DNA of 34,097 nucleotides from Sulfurovum sp. (GTDB lineage: Bacteria > Campylobacterota > Campylobacteria > Campylobacterales > Sulfurovaceae): positions 1 to 34,097 of the forward strand of contig JALWKQ010000198.1 in the NCBI GenBank assembly GCA_027081395.1, written 5' to 3'. The position numbers were made by a program, and so were the translations under genes. Positions 7,487 to 30,080 of this stretch are shown here, piece after piece. How positions within the stretch are numbered: the first letter of the stretch is position 1; each line of letters opens with the position of its first letter. The notes under the pieces were generated by a model. The model was not told the DNA's origin. It saw only the letters and a program-made list of their open reading frames with translations, and did not search any database.

Positions 7487-7973
7487 TATATCCTTTTTTA
7501 TTATTTAATTTCAACTGTTTAGTTGAATATGAGTGCTTATTCATTAGCTTTAATTATAACAATTATAACTTAAATATAAATTAATTAAGATTATCTAATT
7601 GATAAAAAATACTGATTTTGTATAAAATTGTTCCTTTTCCCGTCATTGGGACAAATTTTCTCTTATTTCACCAAAAGCCTATCTTTTTGCCAAAAAACGT
7701 GCTATACTTCCGAACTTTTCTGCAAGAGAGTATCAAACTCCTTACCGAATACACAAGATGTATTCCTCTATATCGCGAAATGATCGTGAAACAAAAAGTT
7801 TGGTATCAGTTGCATAAAACAGGGTTTTACGCCTCTTAGTACCATAAGAAGCTTTTTCTTTAATATCAAGACAACTACAACACCGCATAACAACCGACAA
7901 CGATATGTCAGGGCAATCACTATGCCTTGTCCTATATACAACATAATAAACACATAAACACAGGAAATAAACA

Positions 7974-9488
7974 GTGGAAACAAACACAACAAATACAACA
8001 GAAACAAACAACATAAAATTTACAGACTTCGATCTGAAACCGGAAATCCAGGCAGCTGTACAGGAAGCAGGATTCGTCGAGCCAAGTCCCGTCCAGAAAG
8101 AGGCGATCCCCCTGATCTTAGAGGGCAACGATGTGATCGCACAGGCACAGACAGGTACAGGGAAGACCGCAGCCTTTGGTCTGCCTATCATGAGCATGAT
8201 GGAGGGCAACGGCGAAGTAGAAGGTCTCGTGATCGTCCCTACCCGTGAGCTTGCGATGCAGGTGAGTGACGAGCTCTTCCGTTTCGGTAAAAATGCCGGA
8301 CTCAAGACAGCTACCGTCTATGGCGGTACACCATACGGCAAACAGATCGACAGGATCAAACAGGCATCTATCGTCGTAGCGACCCCCGGCCGTTTGCAGG
8401 ATCTGCTAAAGAGCGGCAAGATCAAGATCAATCCCAAGTTTGTCGTACTCGATGAGGCCGATGAGATGCTTGATATGGGCTTCCTCGATGAGATCAAAAA
8501 TATCTTTACCTATCTGCCCAAAGAGCGTCAGACACTGATGTTCTCCGCGACGATGCCGCCGGCTATCAGAAAGCTTGCCGAAGATATCCTCAAGGATCCA
8601 AAGAGAGTCTCTATCACCAAAAAAGAGAGCACCAATACATCAATCCAGCAGTATTACTATGTGGTACCCGAATATGAGAAAGATGATGCTCTCATCCGTC
8701 TGATCGACTACAAAAACCCTACCAAAAGCATCGTTTTCTGTAGAACGAAAAAGGATGTCGACAGACTCGCAAGCCATATGACCGCACAAGGCTTCAAGGT
8801 CTCATCTCTGCATGGTGACATGGAACAGAAACAGAGAGAGACGACGATCAAAGGCTTCAAAAAGCCTCACGGTATAGAGATGCTCATTGCTACAGATGTC
8901 GCAGCACGCGGGCTCGATGTCAATGATGTCACCCATGTCTTCAACTACGCGCTGCCATTTGATTCAGAGTCCTATGTACACCGTATCGGACGTACGGGAC
9001 GTGGAGGCAAGACAGGCGAGGCGATCACGCTGGTCAGCCCCAATGAACTCCGTACCATCAAACGTATCGAGAAAGATGTCGGTACAAAAATGATCAGCGA
9101 CGTGATCCCTACCCGTATCGAAGTACAGAACAGCCGTGCTGATGAGCTTATCAACAAGATCGCCAACACCAAAATCACCCCGGAGGCAATCGAACTGGTC
9201 AAGACACTGCAGCATGACCTTGATATCGTCACGATCGCACATCTGCTCGCAAGCATGATCCAGAGTGACAATGCCGTCAAAGGTAAGGACAATATCGGTC
9301 TGGGACTCGAAGAGATAGAACGCCTTATCGAAAGAGCGATGCAAAACAGAGGTAACGACAGAGGACGTGGTGGACCAAGAAGACGCAACGGCGGACGTAG
9401 CAACAACCGTAATCGCAGCAGCTACGGCGGCAACCGCGGACGTGGACGTGACAGCAGAAACGGCGGACAGGGCAGTAAACGTTCATAG
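7974..9488 (+). CDS. DEAD-box RNA helicase with RG/RGG-rich C-terminal tail
   Basis: AQTGTGKTAAFG, PTRELAMQ, DEADEMLDMGF, FSATMPP, HRIGRTGR motifs; tail GRGGPRRRNGGRSNNRNRSSYGGNRGRGRDSRNGG; GTG start. Confidence 0.96.
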   Translation: METNTTNTTETNNIKFTDFDLKPEIQAAVQEAGFVEPSPVQKEAIPLILEGNDVIAQAQTGTGKTAAFGLPIMSMMEGNGEVEGLVIVPTRELAMQVSDELFRFGKNAGLKTATVYGGTPYGKQIDRIKQASIVVATPGRLQDLLKSGKIKINPKFVVLDEADEMLDMGFLDEIKNIFTYLPKERQTLMFSATMPPAIRKLAEDILKDPKRVSITKKESTNTSIQQYYYVVPEYEKDDALIRLIDYKNPTKSIVFCRTKKDVDRLASHMTAQGFKVSSLHGDMEQKQRETTIKGFKKPHGIEMLIATDVAARGLDVNDVTHVFNYALPFDSESYVHRIGRTGRGGKTGEAITLVSPNELRTIKRIEKDVGTKMISDVIPTRIEVQNSRADELINKIANTKITPEAIELVKTLQHDLDIVTIAHLLASMIQSDNAVKGKDNIGLGLEEIERLIERAMQNRGNDRGRGGPRRRNGGRSNNRNRSSYGGNRGRGRDSRNGGQGSKRS

Positions 9489-9584: not shown

Positions 9585-10619
9585 ATGAAAATTCAAGGTT
9601 TACTTACACTCTCACTGATCGGAACTGCCCTGCTCTTTGCAGAGGCACCCCAAAGTACAGATCTAATCAGCAAAGCCCAAAAAGCCGGGCTAAAAGCGAT
9701 CCCACAAAACAAAAAAGAGCTCTACAATGTGATCGACCCCAAGGGGATGATCACAGACAAACGCGTGGAGCTGGGTAAAAAGCTCTACTTTGAGCCGAGA
9801 CTCTCAAAAAGCGGTATCATCTCATGTAACACCTGTCACAACCTTGGATTGGGCGGTACGGACGGCGTACCTGCTGCGATCGGTCACAACTGGACAGCCA
9901 ACCCTCACCACCTGAACTCTCCTACAGTATACAACGCTGTCTTTAACAGCAAGCAGTTCTGGGATGGACGCAGTCCCGATCTCGAAGACCAGGCGAAAGG
10001 TCCTATGCAAGCAGCTCCTGAGATGGCTTCACCAAGTACACTGGTCGTAGAGCGTGTACAATCTATGCCCGAATATGTGGCGGCATTCAAAGATGCCTAT
10101 AATGAGAAGGTCAAAGTCGATTTTGATACGATCACCAAAACCATCGGGGTCTTCGAGCGTACATTGGTTACGCCGTCACGCTTCGATGACTTCATGAGCG
10201 GACACAGCAATGCACTCACAGATGCGGAGAAAGAGGGGCTCAATACCTTCATCGATATGGGCTGTGCAAGCTGTCACAACGGTATCGGACTGGGTGGCGG
10301 TATGCAGCCCTTCCCACTGGTAGGCAAGTACAAGTATGCAGATATCGGTGACTTCAAAGGTGACAAGAACGGTATGGTCAAGGTACCGACACTGCGTAAC
10401 ATCACCGAGACAGCTCCCTACTTCCACAACGGTGCGATCTGGAGCCTCAAAGAGGCAGTACAGGAGATGGGTAGAACACAGCTTGGCAAGGAAATCTCAG
10501 ATACAGATACCGCCAAGATCGTGACATTCCTCAAAGCACTCAAAGGCAAGAAGCCTGTTATCACTTACCCTCAGTTCCCAGAGAGTACAGAGAAAACACC
10601 AAAGCCAGACACCAATTAA
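9585..10619 (+). CDS. diheme cytochrome c peroxidase (CcpA/MauG family), secreted
   Basis: signal peptide; two heme motifs CNTCH and CASCH; LGKKLYFEPRLSKSGIISCNTCHNLGLGGTD; KVPTLRNITETAPYFHNG. Confidence 0.95.
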   Translation: MKIQGLLTLSLIGTALLFAEAPQSTDLISKAQKAGLKAIPQNKKELYNVIDPKGMITDKRVELGKKLYFEPRLSKSGIISCNTCHNLGLGGTDGVPAAIGHNWTANPHHLNSPTVYNAVFNSKQFWDGRSPDLEDQAKGPMQAAPEMASPSTLVVERVQSMPEYVAAFKDAYNEKVKVDFDTITKTIGVFERTLVTPSRFDDFMSGHSNALTDAEKEGLNTFIDMGCASCHNGIGLGGGMQPFPLVGKYKYADIGDFKGDKNGMVKVPTLRNITETAPYFHNGAIWSLKEAVQEMGRTQLGKEISDTDTAKIVTFLKALKGKKPVITYPQFPESTEKTPKPDTN

Positions 10620-10626
10620 GACACCT

Positions 10627-10648
10627 CCGGACAAGACACCTTGTCCGG
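10627..10648 (+). terminator. hairpin after cytochrome c peroxidase gene
   Basis: CCGGACAAG-ACAC-CTTGTCCGG perfect 9-bp stem immediately downstream of the stop codon; no immediate U-tract. Confidence 0.5.
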
Positions 10649-10705
10649 CATCAATCCTCCTTCATCTCTTTTTTGTTATGATGCACTAAAAAAGGCATCT
10701 ATTCC

Positions 10706-17434: not shown

Positions 17435-18578
17435 AGATTCCGCCTAATAGTGTATTGTCTGATGCGCCTGTGACATCCTTGAGGTTGACCGGCTCCTTGT
17501 GCAGACGCTTGTACGCCAGCCACGCAAAGCACATCGCCTCGATCTGGTCAGCATGCTTGGCGATGCCCACTTCGACACCCGGCATCAACGCCTTGAGACG
17601 CTCGACAAGGAAGCCATTCTTCGCTCCACCGCCGCAGAGGATGGCTACATCGCTGCCCGATTTTAACACCTCATTGCTAATACTCAGCGCTGTCAGCTCA
17701 AGCAGGGTACGCTGCACATCCTCGGGAGGAAGTGAAGAGTGAAGAGTGAAGAGTGAAGAGTTGTTGTTTGCATTGCTGTGCAATGCTTCTCTCTGAGCGC
17801 TGAACGCTGAACGCTGAACACTCTCAACCCACCCCAGGTTAAACTTCTCACGCCCGGTACTCTTGGGATAAGGCTTCGCAAAATACGCATCCGCCATCAT
17901 CGCATCAAGCAGTTTGTAATCTACCCTGCCCGAACGCGCCCATGCGCCGTCTTTGTCATAAGGAGTGTTTTGATGCTGCCCTATCCATGCATCCATCAGT
18001 ACATTTCCCGGTCCCGTATCGTAGCCGATAAGTTTCTCGCCAAGCAGTGTGATATTTGCCATACCTCCGATGTTGACCACTGCAAGCCGCTCTTTAATAT
18101 TTCCAAATATAAATTTATGGAATGCCGGTGCAAAGGGGGCTCCCTGCCCGCCCAGTGCCATGTCTTTGCGCCTGAAGTCTGCCACGACAGGGATGCCGGT
18201 ACGCGCAGTGACGATACTCGGATCACCAAGCTGCATCGTGAAGGGATACTCACCTTGCGGCGCATGCCAAAGCGTCTGCCCATGTGAGCCGATGGCACGG
18301 ATCTCCCCCGCATCGTACTGAGACGCCTCCAGCAGTGCCGCTACCGCCTCGGCAAAGAGCAGCCCCAAGCGGTGATCCGTCGCACCAACTTGCTCAAGCG
18401 TCGTCTCTCCATCGATCATCGCGATGATCTCATCCTTTAGCTCTACAGGCATAGGATAGCTGATCTCATACACAAGCTCACAACTTTGCGCATCTATCTC
18501 ACACAACACCACATCCACCCCATCAAGCGAGGTGCCTGACATGATGCCGATGTATTTTTCTTTGCCTGAGTATGCCAT
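17427..18578 (-). CDS. anmK: anhydro-N-acetylmuramic acid kinase (with a repeat-derived in-frame insertion)
   Basis: YIGIMSGTSLDGVDVVL, GSHGQTLWHAP, VVADFRRKDMALGGQGAPFAPAFHKF, NIGGMANIT, GYDTGPGNVLMDAW, STGREKFNL, CGGGAKN. Confidence 0.95.
   Translation of the reverse strand: MAYSGKEKYIGIMSGTSLDGVDVVLCEIDAQSCELVYEISYPMPVELKDEIIAMIDGETTLEQVGATDHRLGLLFAEAVAALLEASQYDAGEIRAIGSHGQTLWHAPQGEYPFTMQLGDPSIVTARTGIPVVADFRRKDMALGGQGAPFAPAFHKFIFGNIKERLAVVNIGGMANITLLGEKLIGYDTGPGNVLMDAWIGQHQNTPYDKDGAWARSGRVDYKLLDAMMADAYFAKPYPKSTGREKFNLGWVESVQRSAFSAQREALHSNANNNSSLFTLHSSLPPEDVQRTLLELTALSISNEVLKSGSDVAILCGGGAKNGFLVERLKALMPGVEVGIAKHADQIEAMCFAWLAYKRLHKEPVNLKDVTGASDNTLLGGIYE
17731..17818. repeat. composite heptanucleotide repeat/hairpin element inside anmK
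   Basis: (AGTGAAG)x4+AGT at 17731-17761, GCATTG-CTGTG-CAATGC hairpin at 17770-17786, (CGCTGAA)x3 at 17798-17818. Confidence 0.9.
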
Positions 18579-25072: not shown

Positions 25073-26020
25073 TTGAAGACTCACCGTACACTCATAGCTT
25101 TGATGCTATCTCTCTTGCTGCATCTGCTGATCTTTCTGCTCCTCTTTCTCACGCTCAAGGAGGTGATCATGCCTCCCCCGCCAAGCAGTGAAAAGAAGAT
25201 CACGCTTGATCTCAAACAGTTCACACCGCCACCCAGTGCCAAGCCGACCAAACCAAGTTTGCCTCCGCTACAAAAGCCGCTGCCAAAACCTGCAAAAGCA
25301 GTACCACCCCATAAGCTACCGACACCTCAACCTCTCGCCGCAACTGCTCCCCAAAAGATACAAAAAAAGCAGATCGATACCAAAAAACGTATCGTCGCCG
25401 AAAAAAGCGACCAAGAGAACAACGCAACCCGCCAAAGCAAAAAAAGAGTCACCAAAAGCACCCGGAAGACAAAAGCGAAAAAGAGAATCGTCAAAAAGAA
25501 GCATAAATCTCCATCTCTCAAAAGAGTGGTCAAAAAGCAATCCAAAAGAAAAATCTATAAAAAGAGACGAAAAGCATTGCCAAAAAGAAGCAAACTGGCA
25601 AACGCCCTGCTTGGTGCAGGTACCTCCGTCTATCCGACACGCAACAGAGCACCGTCAAGAGAGAGCAGCAAAGAGAGGATGATACGCAAACTCTACGGCA
25701 GAGAGTTTGACAGCTTTACCCCGGTACAAAAAAAGTTTATCCGTGACAAGCTTGGTGAGATCCACCGTATCACCCAAAACACCCTTACACGCAACGGCTA
25801 TCCAAGCGTCGCTGCACGTACTGGACAGCAGGGTGTCAATGTAGTGACCTTCTATCTACATCCCAACGGGGATATCAGCGGACTTCGGCTCAAGCGCCGC
25901 ATGGGCTACGCTGCACTCGACCAAAACACTCTGGAGGTGATCCGTACCGCCTACATGCATTATCCCCGCCCCAAAACCAAAACGAAGATCACGTTTTATG
26001 TCAACTATGAGCTATTTTAA
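25073..26020 (+). CDS. TonB-like energy transducer with long Lys/Arg/Pro-rich linker
   Basis: TTG start with aggaga upstream; N-terminal TM, Pro-rich, then very basic linker, C-terminal GQQGVNVVTFYLHPNGDISGLRLKRRMGYAALDQNTLEVIRTAYMHYPRPKTKTKITFYVNYELF (TonB C-terminal fold). Confidence 0.88.
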   Translation: MKTHRTLIALMLSLLLHLLIFLLLFLTLKEVIMPPPPSSEKKITLDLKQFTPPPSAKPTKPSLPPLQKPLPKPAKAVPPHKLPTPQPLAATAPQKIQKKQIDTKKRIVAEKSDQENNATRQSKKRVTKSTRKTKAKKRIVKKKHKSPSLKRVVKKQSKRKIYKKRRKALPKRSKLANALLGAGTSVYPTRNRAPSRESSKERMIRKLYGREFDSFTPVQKKFIRDKLGEIHRITQNTLTRNGYPSVAARTGQQGVNVVTFYLHPNGDISGLRLKRRMGYAALDQNTLEVIRTAYMHYPRPKTKTKITFYVNYELF

Positions 26021-27990
26021 AGATGTGCTGAAATAACTTTTTTCAGCATTTCATTTTTGATAGGTTTCAATAAAATATCTGTTGCTCCTGCTTCCCTAAT
26101 TTTATGCACTATATCCACATCTGCTACACCGGTTAAACTATATATCGGGATATCTTTTCCTTTGGGAGTAGCTCTAATAAACTGTATTGCTTCACTTCCA
26201 TTCATCTCAGGCATCTGTTCATCCATAAATATAAGATCTATGGGGTATTTTTGGAAAATTTCTATTGCTTCTTCTCCATCTGAAGCCGTATATGGGAGTA
26301 CCTTATGTTTTTTCAAAACTTCCTGCATTAATTTACGATTGATAATATTATCATCTGCAATCAGCACATTTAGGATTCTTGGTTCTGCCTTTGCATCTAC
26401 ATTCTGAACTTCATGATCTTTTGTCTCTTTTGGGGATGTTCCAAGTTCAGCAATCGCATCAAACAGTTTATGTGGGAAGAGTGGGCGGTGTAACAATATA
26501 GCATCACCAAATAGATCATCCAAATCCATAAATATAGATGATTCTATGATAATGAGTTGCGATGCAAATCGTTTATAACATTCTTTAAAAGAGAATGTTT
26601 TATAATCTTTCTCAATACAAAGGATGATACTCTCGTTCTCTATCTTATCTATATCTTCTGGTGTAATTATCTTGAGCCCAATGTTAGATTGATCAAAATA
26701 TTTTTTGATATGCTTCATATAGTCAATATCTGTCTGTTCACCTTTGATACAATAGATACTTTTTTGAGAAGCTATAGCGATCTTCTCTCTATCTACAGAT
26801 GGGGGAGTACCCTCAATAGTTTGACAAGGTAAAATAAGTGAAAACGTACTACCGACACCTTCATGACTTGATACTTCCAATTTTGCACCCAATAGATCTG
26901 CCAGCTGTTTAGATATCGTCAAACCAAGCCCAGTACCGCCATATTTACTAGATGTTGACTTGGATGCCTGCTGAAATGGTTTAAATATCTGTTTTATAGC
27001 ATCTTCTGAAATACCTATACCGCTATCTACTACATCAATACGCAGTTGATCCGTTTGTTTATCATAGATAAAATTAAGGTTGATAGTCCCATTTTCCGGA
27101 GTAAACTTGAGAGCATTGCTGATAAAGTTATTTAGTATCTGTTTAACACGGTAAGGATCGGAGAGGATCATATATGGAATATTGATATCATAATAGATAG
27201 AAAAATCGATTTTCTTTTTTCTAGCCAAGTGATAAAATGTCATAGCAATATTTTCAAACTCTTCCATGGGAGAGAAGTAATATTTATCTACCTCCAGTTT
27301 ACCCGCCTCAATTTTTGTAAAATCCAAAACATCATTAATCAAAGCAGATATCATTTCAGAGCTTCTATGCGCTGCATAGATATACTCTTTGAGCTTTGGA
27401 TTATCTATCTCCTGTTCTAAAAGCTCCAAAAACCCCATTATCGCTCCTATAGGAGTACGTATATCATGGACAACAGAAGAAAAGAACTGATATGCTCTAT
27501 TGAGTTGCATCTCAAAATCCTCTGATGTTTTTCTTTGTATACATGCAAATTTTTGATTTAACATATCATAAGATTCTAGTTTGGGGGCATGTTTAAGAAG
27601 TATCTGCTCTATTTTCTCTATTTCATTTTTTACAAATATCTTTTTTGTACCCTCTACTTGATACAAAATCATACAACCTAGCAAGCAACTCTTCTCTTGA
27701 TCTCTATACATAGGAACAATCGCAATATTCTCTACTTTAAATTTAAAAGGATTATCTACAGTTTTGTTATATAAAAAACTGTTTGAGACATTATTTATAA
27801 TTAAAGGTTTATTATTGTCAAAAACTGTATGCAGGGCAGATTCTTTTATTGTCGTGTTATCAATTTCTGTCTGCTTGTTGGAATGATAATAAAATAATGC
27901 ATCATTAGCATGAAGACATATAACAATATCATCAGCACTACAACTGTTCTTTATCTGATTAATAACATCAAGATCAATTACAGTATCCAC
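26017..27990 (-). CDS. hybrid sensor histidine kinase (GAF-like - HisKA - HATPase - degenerate receiver - receiver)
   Basis: VVHDIRTPIGAIMGFLELL H-box; NNFISNALKFTPENG N-box; VVDSGIGIS; YGGTGLGLTISK; C-terminal receiver LIADDN...LIFMDEQMPEMNG...LKPI. Confidence 0.94.
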   Translation of the reverse strand: MDTVIDLDVINQIKNSCSADDIVICLHANDALFYYHSNKQTEIDNTTIKESALHTVFDNNKPLIINNVSNSFLYNKTVDNPFKFKVENIAIVPMYRDQEKSCLLGCMILYQVEGTKKIFVKNEIEKIEQILLKHAPKLESYDMLNQKFACIQRKTSEDFEMQLNRAYQFFSSVVHDIRTPIGAIMGFLELLEQEIDNPKLKEYIYAAHRSSEMISALINDVLDFTKIEAGKLEVDKYYFSPMEEFENIAMTFYHLARKKKIDFSIYYDINIPYMILSDPYRVKQILNNFISNALKFTPENGTINLNFIYDKQTDQLRIDVVDSGIGISEDAIKQIFKPFQQASKSTSSKYGGTGLGLTISKQLADLLGAKLEVSSHEGVGSTFSLILPCQTIEGTPPSVDREKIAIASQKSIYCIKGEQTDIDYMKHIKKYFDQSNIGLKIITPEDIDKIENESIILCIEKDYKTFSFKECYKRFASQLIIIESSIFMDLDDLFGDAILLHRPLFPHKLFDAIAELGTSPKETKDHEVQNVDAKAEPRILNVLIADDNIINRKLMQEVLKKHKVLPYTASDGEEAIEIFQKYPIDLIFMDEQMPEMNGSEAIQFIRATPKGKDIPIYSLTGVADVDIVHKIREAGATDILLKPIKNEMLKKVISAHL

Positions 27991-27994
27991 TTAC

Positions 27995-28660
27995 TTATCC
28001 TATATGATTCAAAAATTCTTTTTCTACAATCTCTTTGGTCTCTTCATTGATCTTCATCATAGAACCAACAGGTAAATCTCTCGAACTAACGATAACTAAG
28101 ATACTCTCATCAGCTATCTCTCTACAATACATTTGGAATATATCATACACCTCTACAACAGTATGCCATCTGCCAATGAGATCTTCAATCTTTTTATTAT
28201 CACGAATAAAGTCAACCATTGCTGAAACCTGGGTTATTAGGTTTTCTGCCTCTATCTTACTCTCTTCTCGAATATAATTAAATAGATCATCATTTTTGAG
28301 CACAAAACATGCATAAACCTCTTTACGCAAACTCTTGCTGCACAACTCTTCAAAAGCGCTGTTTTTTTCGTCTGTGCTTTCATCCCTTTCCAAAGGTTGT
28401 TCGATCTCAACATCATTTTTTAATTTTTTCAATGATTCTTCAGAGATAGGCTCCTTCTTTTGAAGAGCTTTGAAAAAGAGTGCCAACGCCTTCTTGTGAA
28501 ACTTCATCAAATTTTCCTTTTTTGATTTTTTATGTTTTAACGTAAACAGTTGCTTTTCACTCCCATTCTCATCAAGAACAAAATGTGTTACTATTGTGTT
28601 TTTCTCTTTTTCTGTCCTTAAAAAATAGACCTTTCCTTCTACTGCAATACGATCTTCCAT
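27995..28660 (-). CDS. hypothetical protein with possible C-terminal Roadblock/LC7-like domain
   Basis: 221 aa; charged central linker; C-terminal half predicted by eye as alpha-beta-beta-alpha-beta-beta-beta-alpha (CSKSLRKEVYACFVLKNDDLFNYIREES...RWHTVVEVYDIFQMYCREIADESILVIVSSRDLPVGSMMKINEETKEIVE). Confidence 0.55.
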   Translation of the reverse strand: MEDRIAVEGKVYFLRTEKEKNTIVTHFVLDENGSEKQLFTLKHKKSKKENLMKFHKKALALFFKALQKKEPISEESLKKLKNDVEIEQPLERDESTDEKNSAFEELCSKSLRKEVYACFVLKNDDLFNYIREESKIEAENLITQVSAMVDFIRDNKKIEDLIGRWHTVVEVYDIFQMYCREIADESILVIVSSRDLPVGSMMKINEETKEIVEKEFLNHIG

Positions 28661-28662
28661 AG

Positions 28663-29013
28663 CTACTTACCTCCATCGAAGATACGTTGTTTGATCAATG
28701 CAATAATTTTTCCAAAACTTAGTGATTTTTCAGCAATAAGTACAAAACAGATATTTTCGTCTATTCTCCTCAACACCATATTATACTCAGTACTCTCAAG
28801 TACAGCTTGCTGAATCGTAGACTCAGTAAATAGCACAAACCCTTTTTGAAGGAGCTTTGTAAACTGCTCTTCATCCTTCTCATGTTTATAGACTTTTTTG
28901 ACATATTTGACATGCTCAATGTCCACTAGATAAATAGCACATATATCTTTAAGATCTGAAAATTTCTCACTGTAGTCAACTAGTCTAGCCTGCAAAATCT
29001 CTTTGATAATCAT
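28663..29013 (-). CDS. small protein with Roadblock/LC7-like topology
   Basis: 116 aa; alpha(ILQARLVDYSEKFSDL)-beta(CAIYLVDIEHV)-beta(KYVKKVYK)-alpha-beta(YNMVLRRID)-beta(NICFVLIAEKS)-alpha(FGKIIALIKQRIF). Confidence 0.6.
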   Translation of the reverse strand: MIIKEILQARLVDYSEKFSDLKDICAIYLVDIEHVKYVKKVYKHEKDEEQFTKLLQKGFVLFTESTIQQAVLESTEYNMVLRRIDENICFVLIAEKSLSFGKIIALIKQRIFDGGK

Positions 29014-29091
29014 GACTCTCCATTTCCAAAATATTTTTACTTTTTAAAATAAATAACATTTACTTCAAAAAATAAAAAAGCTTCACACGGG

Positions 29092-29128
29092 TAGCAGTAC
29101 ACCCCGTTGACGTACTGGGGTACCGCTA
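29092..29128 (-). other. intercistronic RNA hairpin candidate in the Roadblock operon
   Basis: minus-strand TAGCGGTACCCC ... GGGGTGTACTGCTA pairs (one G-U, one bulge), followed 11 nt later by CTTTTTTATTTTTT. Confidence 0.6.
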
Positions 29129-29134
29129 TGTTGA

Positions 29135-29332
29135 CTAACTCATATTCCTGATTAGTCCATTGACAAACGAAAGAAGTTGTGGGGTTACCCCCTTTAAGTC
29201 TTCATTTGTTACATCAAGTTCAGCTAGAACGCTCATAAGCTTTTTATAAAACTCTGCAGGCTCTATCTCACCCTTTTTCATCTCATCTATATATGCAAGT
29301 AAATGCTCTTTTGCCACTTTGACATCTCCCAT
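29135..29332 (-). CDS. small helical protein of unknown function
   Basis: 65 aa MGDVKVAKEHLLAYIDEMKKGEIEPAEFYKKLMSVLAELDVTNEDLKGVTPQLLSFVNGLIRNMS; co-directional between Roadblock-like genes; gagagg RBS upstream. Confidence 0.65.
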   Translation of the reverse strand: MGDVKVAKEHLLAYIDEMKKGEIEPAEFYKKLMSVLAELDVTNEDLKGVTPQLLSFVNGLIRNMS

Positions 29333-29431
29333 GGGTTACATCCTCTCAAATTAAAACTGTAAATAATAATCAAAAAGAAAAACTGATCTTTTTCAAGACA
29401 CCTCTAGTATGATTGAAATATTGATAGGAAG

Positions 29432-29809
29432 TTAAACTGCCTGAATCTCTTTTACAAATGTCTTCAGCGCAACGATAAGTCCACCCATCTTGTAACCTTT
29501 TGGAGCGATAGCAGCAAACGCAACATCTTCACCAAGATCTTTAATCGCGATCGAACCGTTATCCGCACTAATAATCATCTCACTTAACGTGCCTGTTCCT
29601 GTATTTTCAAGTGCACTATGCAATACTGAAAGGAGTGTTGCTGTATCTGCAGCAATAAGATCTGCATCTTTATCTGACTTAAAGTAGTTTGCCATCTCCA
29701 ATCCCTCTGCAGTTGCAATAATTGCACCATCTAGTCCCATTTTGTCTACAAAAGTTTGAAGCAACGCTTCACCTTCACTTGTTAATTTCCCGATATCCAA
29801 AGCCATCAT
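29432..29809 (-). CDS. Roadblock/LC7 domain protein (MglB-like)
   Basis: 125 aa; FVDKMGLDGAIIATAEGLEMANYFKSDKDADLIAADTATLLSVLHSALENTGTGTLSEMIISADNGSIAIKDLGEDVAFAAIAPKGYKMGGLIVALKTFVKEI. Confidence 0.88.
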   Translation of the reverse strand: MMALDIGKLTSEGEALLQTFVDKMGLDGAIIATAEGLEMANYFKSDKDADLIAADTATLLSVLHSALENTGTGTLSEMIISADNGSIAIKDLGEDVAFAAIAPKGYKMGGLIVALKTFVKEIQAV

Positions 29810-30080
29810 AGCCTCCTATAATTAAAATCTTTCATTATATGAATAATGATTCAAGATTATAACAGAAAAATGTCAAATTACAAATCTTCAGGCAGAAAAG
29901 GCTTAGCAGAATGGCTTGTTAGTTGTCATGAATATCTATGTGAAATATCAAAGTGATACATCATCTCTCATGATATGATCTAACGCATCATAAATATCAA
30001 CGATCATTTCTACTATAAATTTAAAGAGGACCATAGTCACACCTTTTATAATCTAATTTACAAAAGGTATCAAAAATATG

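Follow-up and report, generated by a model that had tools for sequence, protein, structure and literature searches.

A conserved Roadblock-kinase gene module in Sulfurovum and related genera

Roadblock proteins normally partner and regulate small GTPases. The actinobacterial conservon (AGPS) combines the kinase CvnA, the Roadblock protein CvnB, the DUF742 protein CvnC and the GTPase CvnD, with an accessory GAF protein, CvnF. Roadblock proteins are also part of the MglA/MglB polarity module of Myxococcus (with RomR/RomX, RomY and MglC), and several Roadblock-fold subunits occur in Ragulator/LAMTOR, the eukaryotic Rag GTPase scaffold. Here we describe a five-gene cluster (genes A to E) from a Sulfurovum sp. 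that combines Roadblock-fold proteins with a hybrid histidine kinase. It was found in a stretch of 34,097 nucleotides (contig JALWKQ010000198.1, assembly GCA_027081395.1, hereafter the window), whose source bin, G000, has 1.6 Mb, is 79% complete and contains one Roadblock gene. The cluster is a real, conserved Roadblock-kinase module and is new as a variant; in the open-access literature we found no paper that connects Sulfurovum, or a hybrid-kinase module, with Roadblock proteins, and none describing the module itself. Its features, with lengths in amino acids (aa), are as follows.

29432..29809, minus strand: gene A, Roadblock/LC7 protein, 125 aa, ATG start (PF03259 match)
29135..29332, minus strand: gene B, 65 aa, not in Pfam, ATG start (alignment)
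29014..29134, minus strand: B-C intergenic region with a strong hairpin and a second, long A/U-rich hairpin (folding z-score)
28663..29013, minus strand: gene C, 116 aa, Roadblock fold, ATG start (AlphaFold2 and Foldseek)
27995..28660, minus strand: gene D, 221 aa, C-terminal Roadblock domain, ATG start (AlphaFold2 and Foldseek)
26017..27990, minus strand: gene E, cytosolic hybrid histidine kinase, 657 aa, GTG start (Pfam and alignment)
29856..29883, minus strand: possible sigma-70-type promoter upstream of A, TTGTAA-16-TATAAT with an extended -10 (weak; such matches are no commoner than in shuffled sequence)

The five co-directional open reading frames lie exactly where the first-pass annotation had placed them, on the same strand, and the very short gaps that it reported at the kinase end measure 2 bases (C-D) and 4 bases (D-E). 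In the other loci these two gaps range from -26 to +25, and the almost gapless C-D-E arrangement found in all loci supports a link of C and D with E. The A-B gap (73 to 114 bases across loci) and the B-C gap (57 to 257) are longer. None of the five proteins has a membrane-type segment.

Across Sulfurovum and related genera, 11 full-length loci hold the module in one order (A-B-C-D-E) and on one strand, and their genomic contexts are of several kinds. A single gene order in this many loci is far beyond chance, and it bears out the idea that the small genes and the kinase co-occur in relatives. The loci, by genome (G) and locus (L), are given below.

Complete sets: window, G009 (L017), G499 (L022), G024 (L018), G467 (L024, L065), G358 (L040), G506 (L066), G178 (L041), G468 (L067), G006 (L021), G471 (L069, frame break in D)
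Sets truncated at a contig end: G015 (A-B-C), G060 (A-D plus the beginning of E), G002, G443 (only A), G488 (only E)
Variant in G135 (L043): A-B-B-D without C, E lying on the facing strand
Variant in G496 (L026, L068): A-A-B, with C/D replaced by a GAF protein followed by a degenerate GAF-kinase protein, and E last

The Roadblock Pfam model matched 6 of 397 Campylobacterota genomes, in all six through this module, and a profile of B recovered those same 6/397 genomes with E values below 1e-15, B being found only with A. Within the family, A is carried by 16 of 175 genomes. Some details of single loci can be added. In L069, D is split between two frames (7575-8241), by sequencing error or a real frameshift, and a 135-aa protein behind E (10266-10673, plus strand) looks Roadblock-like by eye and has no Pfam match. 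The tandem copies of A in L026 (3347-4710) and L068 are near-identical. A tblastn match in L027 was rejected as chance, because it falls within a DNA polymerase I frame or next to it.

Gene A codes for the clear Roadblock/LC7 protein recognized in the first-pass annotation, as it matches PF03259 at 3.4e-11 and 43.2 bits, above the curated cut-off of 23. Searched against PDB, its profile found an Asgard Roadblock (9jue, 1.3e-9) and the conservon protein CvnB5 (3leq, 0.0014). A is slow-evolving, with 56 to 94% identity between loci (mean 0.67), and probably forms a homodimer. B is as conserved as A (57 to 95%, mean 0.75), with F28-Y29-K30, G48 and N58 invariant in the alignment; it is probably a helical protein and gave only chance matches to Pfam and PDB and nothing meaningful in NCBIfam.

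C and D had been called Roadblock-like from their order of helices and strands by eye. We modeled both with AlphaFold2 as single chains, from ten-sequence alignments, and compared the models with PDB by Foldseek, a procedure that could have shown other folds; it upheld the assignment. The model of C (predicted local distance difference test, pLDDT, 89.9) has the Roadblock element order H-E-E-H-E-E-E-H, and its best matches are LAMTOR, MglB and MglC (E 3e-5 to 1e-4, prob 1.00). D was modeled at a pLDDT of 76 as an N-terminal domain of four strands plus a helix (1-68) joined by a low-confidence linker to a C-terminal Roadblock domain (~94-220), which matched Asgard Roadblock3, MglB and LAMTOR (E ~5e-5, prob 1.00). 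According to these models, the module holds three Roadblock folds: A, C and, in its C-terminal half, D. Neither C nor D had a meaningful match in Pfam or NCBIfam, nor did their sequence profiles against PDB, while hhalign paired the two with each other at 75% (E 2.5e-5). Both are fast-evolving, with a mean identity between loci of 0.27 for each (16 to 93% for C).

E carries a GAF-like region (~10-130), HisKA (168-230), HATPase_c (278-389) and a receiver (Response_reg, 542-653), so the Pfam results agree with the hybrid kinase architecture proposed earlier. Its GAF part appears weak in single sequences and recurrent in the family: PF01590 matches E in 6 of 11 family members, with a best value of 6e-5 and one of 0.0024 for the E of the window, and the best PDB profile match of this region is a cGMP phosphodiesterase chain at 3.5e-4. 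Between HATPase and receiver (~396-535) lies a domain-sized stretch that, by eye, resembles a degenerate receiver. As the phospho-acceptor H175, the residues of the ATP-binding boxes (N292, G324/G326, G352-G356) and those of the receiver (D546-D547, D590, K642) are invariant in 10 E members, E is expected to work as an active hybrid kinase. With a mean identity between loci of 0.44, it stands between A/B and C/D.

The recurring loci and the folds together support a conserved module that joins several Roadblock proteins with a hybrid kinase of the two-component type, as the first-pass annotation had suggested. What the coupling does can only be proposed. The reading that we favor, with slightly better than even confidence, is that Roadblock-fold proteins are coupled to the hybrid kinase with C/D as its input arm. 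The module would be cytosolic, with Roadblock proteins acting on the kinase in place of a GTPase or at a step before one. C would most likely form a Roadblock heterodimer with the C-terminal domain of D, the pair serving as an input platform of E beside its own GAF-like domain, and signal binding would set the autophosphorylation of E and transfer to its receiver. A and B would be a more abundant, sequence-constrained core, which the kinase arm addresses and which meets a conserved partner in the cell; for Sulfurovum, a Ras-like GTPase with its gene elsewhere may be this partner. The input role of C/D is suggested by the loss of the GAF domain from E in L021 and L043, where D is retained (C also in L021), and by the variant in G496, in which a GAF protein (PF13185, 6e-6) and a degenerate kinase replace C/D, so that Roadblock and GAF input parts look interchangeable. 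By analogy, a precedent would be the conservon protein CvnF8, a GAF accessory protein that binds and stimulates the kinase CvnA8; GAF accessories of this kind accompany kinases without a sensor domain (PMC13343842).

Several points weigh against this proposal. By hhalign, A has little profile likeness to C (16%) or D (2%), which makes the latter two Roadblock proteins by fold and not by sequence. The structures are single-chain models, that of D of moderate confidence at its pLDDT of 76, and in L043 the kinase is on the facing strand and C is missing. Roadblock folds are, moreover, common interaction modules, and kinase input is one of several possible roles for them.

A further element of the module is the hairpin region between B and C. 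Its folding z-score is -4.7 in the window and ranges from -1.4 to -9.8 over 13 loci, eleven of them at -2.0 or lower, while the A-B gap, with z-scores from +0.6 to -1.8, folds no better than shuffled sequence. The first hairpin stands shortly past the B stop codon in most loci and its letters differ from locus to locus, so the hairpins are conserved as structure and not as sequence. Intrinsic-terminator scoring did not score the hairpin region of the window as a terminator, and an Rfam scan of the window gave no match. We infer that the element gives higher expression of A/B than of C-D-E, with termination and processing both compatible, and it would in this way set the A/B to C/D/E ratio.

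The module was gained, and at least once lost, as a unit. In the window it is flanked by a tonB-like gene and a YkuD gene, and in the relatives G509, G036 and G014 these two neighbors enclose a gene of 144 to 149 aa instead of the module (empty sites L136, L140 and L141). G503, also without the module, retains a 57-aa remnant of the C-terminal end of E beside tonB (L137:2293-2466), which points to recent module loss. The G+C content of the module is below that of the flanks in every locus measured (0.34 for the window module, 0.47 for the window overall). The TonB-like protein (25073-26020, plus strand) is itself only ~50% conserved among close relatives, compared with ~90% for the adjacent hemL.

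No locus of the module holds a GTPase gene within the cluster, in agreement with what had been noted for the window, and a GTPase encoded elsewhere had been offered as a possible target. We searched the carriers with PF00025 and PF08477 and used a GTPase profile across the family. Several carriers hold, elsewhere in the genome, stand-alone Ras-like GTPases of 158 to 168 aa, mostly in clusters of a coiled-coil protein, an OmpA protein, the GTPase and a GGDEF protein or kinase. They lack the G3 glutamine, with WD-x-EG followed by R, E, A or G. Both this gene arrangement and the missing glutamine have been described for the Group 1 Rup GTPases by Wuichet and Sogaard-Andersen (PMC4316618), and by the features compared with that description the carrier GTPases are Group 1 Rup-like. 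Such clusters were found in L044 to L048; the one in L047 codes for two GTPases, and in L046 the GTPase is beside an Hpt protein and kinases.

The module could then provide the missing regulator for a small GTPase in trans, with A/B and/or C/D acting on the Rup-like GTPase and E feeding in the signal, an alternative that we consider unlikely. Among high-quality Sulfurovum genomes, a Rup-like GTPase is present in all 7 carriers versus 6 of 32 non-carriers (Fisher 1e-4), and trait simulations on the hemL tree reached this association in 2 to 3 of 3,000 runs (tree-aware p of ~0.001), although the test is post hoc, the family having been picked since it turned up in carriers, and one gene tree is a rough control. 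One of the six non-carriers with the GTPase is G503, the genome with the remnant of E. Roadblock proteins regulate GTPases in other systems, and the missing G3 glutamine is a described trait of the Group 1 Rup GTPases, for which neither an experimentally characterized member nor a GTPase-activating protein (GAP) was reported (PMC4316618). The same survey, however, found none of 121 Rup genes beside an MglB homolog. Draft bins can miss genes, as seen for the bin of the window, which has no Rup-like GTPase while its close relative G509 has one, but the carriers outside Sulfurovum G060 (100% complete), G468 (99%) and G135 (99%) gave no small Ras-like GTPase with either Pfam model or the family profile. 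In G178 a Ras/Roc-like domain (7.8e-17) occurs only in a 663-aa open frame (contig C25, ~17929-18246, minus strand), possibly a large GTPase fusion. Since complete carriers in sister genera have no small GTPase, a GTPase partner is possible and not obligatory: the proposal of a GTPase elsewhere stands as a possibility for the high-quality Sulfurovum carriers and fails for the complete sister-genus ones. The specific version in which the module is a Roadblock-type regulator of Group 1 Rup GTPases, a kinase-to-GTPase relay assembled from two separately encoded clusters, seems to us distinctly improbable.

We also think it very unlikely that the module is a conservon-like or MglB-like system sharing descent with the actinobacterial design, its GTPase gene merely detached. 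The part list (kinase, Roadblock, small protein) is alike in outline and A resembles CvnB5, as mentioned above, but besides the missing neighbor GTPase the Pfam searches of the carriers gave no MglA-type GTPase, only Rup-like ones and larger GTPases of housekeeping size, and B, C and D had no match to DUF742 at E values up to 1. The kinase, furthermore, is soluble and has a receiver. With these results, neither conservon membership nor an MglA-type partner, both raised in the first-pass annotation, is supported.

There is little reason to believe that A-B and C-D-E, the latter being a kinase plus two accessory proteins, are two separate systems that happen to be neighbors. The hairpin region does divide them, their evolutionary rates differ, and the identity matrices of B and E are uncorrelated (rho 0.08), but most gene pairs do correlate (C-E 0.66, A-B 0.58, C-D 0.50), all six genomes with a Roadblock Pfam match carry both B and the E kinase (cut by a contig end in G060), and both variants, in G135 and G496, retain A, B and E. 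An anti-phage or other defense role, which the patchy distribution, AT-rich composition, empty sites and toxin-antitoxin-type genes near two module copies might recall, is scarcely credible, because PADLOC gave only generic kinase/receiver models and one match at 0.0067 with nothing specific, there is no effector enzyme, and tblastn found no match of A in phages or plasmids or of B in viral contigs. These tblastn results also led us to reject carriage by a phage or plasmid.

With three Roadblock folds and a kinase, and with some carrier genomes lacking a small Ras-like GTPase, the module implies either direct regulation of the kinase by Roadblock proteins or an optional GTPase partner. It also represents a concrete lead on the Rup GTPases and their missing GAP (PMC4316618). 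The Group 1 Rup system is present in trans in every high-quality Sulfurovum carrier, although it forms a separate cluster, also occurs without the module, is missing from complete carriers of other genera and has no described Roadblock partner. The MglA/MglB module is similar in joining Roadblock proteins and a receiver-domain protein (RomR) in one system; here no MglA-type GTPase was found, and a single protein, encoded alongside the Roadblock proteins, contains both kinase and receiver. With its several Roadblock-fold subunits and a helical protein, and with LAMTOR among the best structural matches of C, the module is a compact bacterial set whose part list recalls Ragulator, a likeness of fold and part list only, as the latter is a eukaryotic Rag GTPase scaffold. 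In comparison with the conservon, the Sulfurovum module has no CvnD-like GTPase in the operon in any locus, has three Roadblock folds instead of one and a small protein, B, that matches no Pfam family, and uses a soluble hybrid kinase with a receiver where CvnA is a membrane kinase without one. It is not a conservon, because it has no operon GTPase, no DUF742 and no receiver-less membrane kinase. It is conservon-like in outline, as in both systems one conserved operon holds a kinase, a Roadblock protein and an additional small protein, and a GAF-type accessory protein can drive the conservon kinase.

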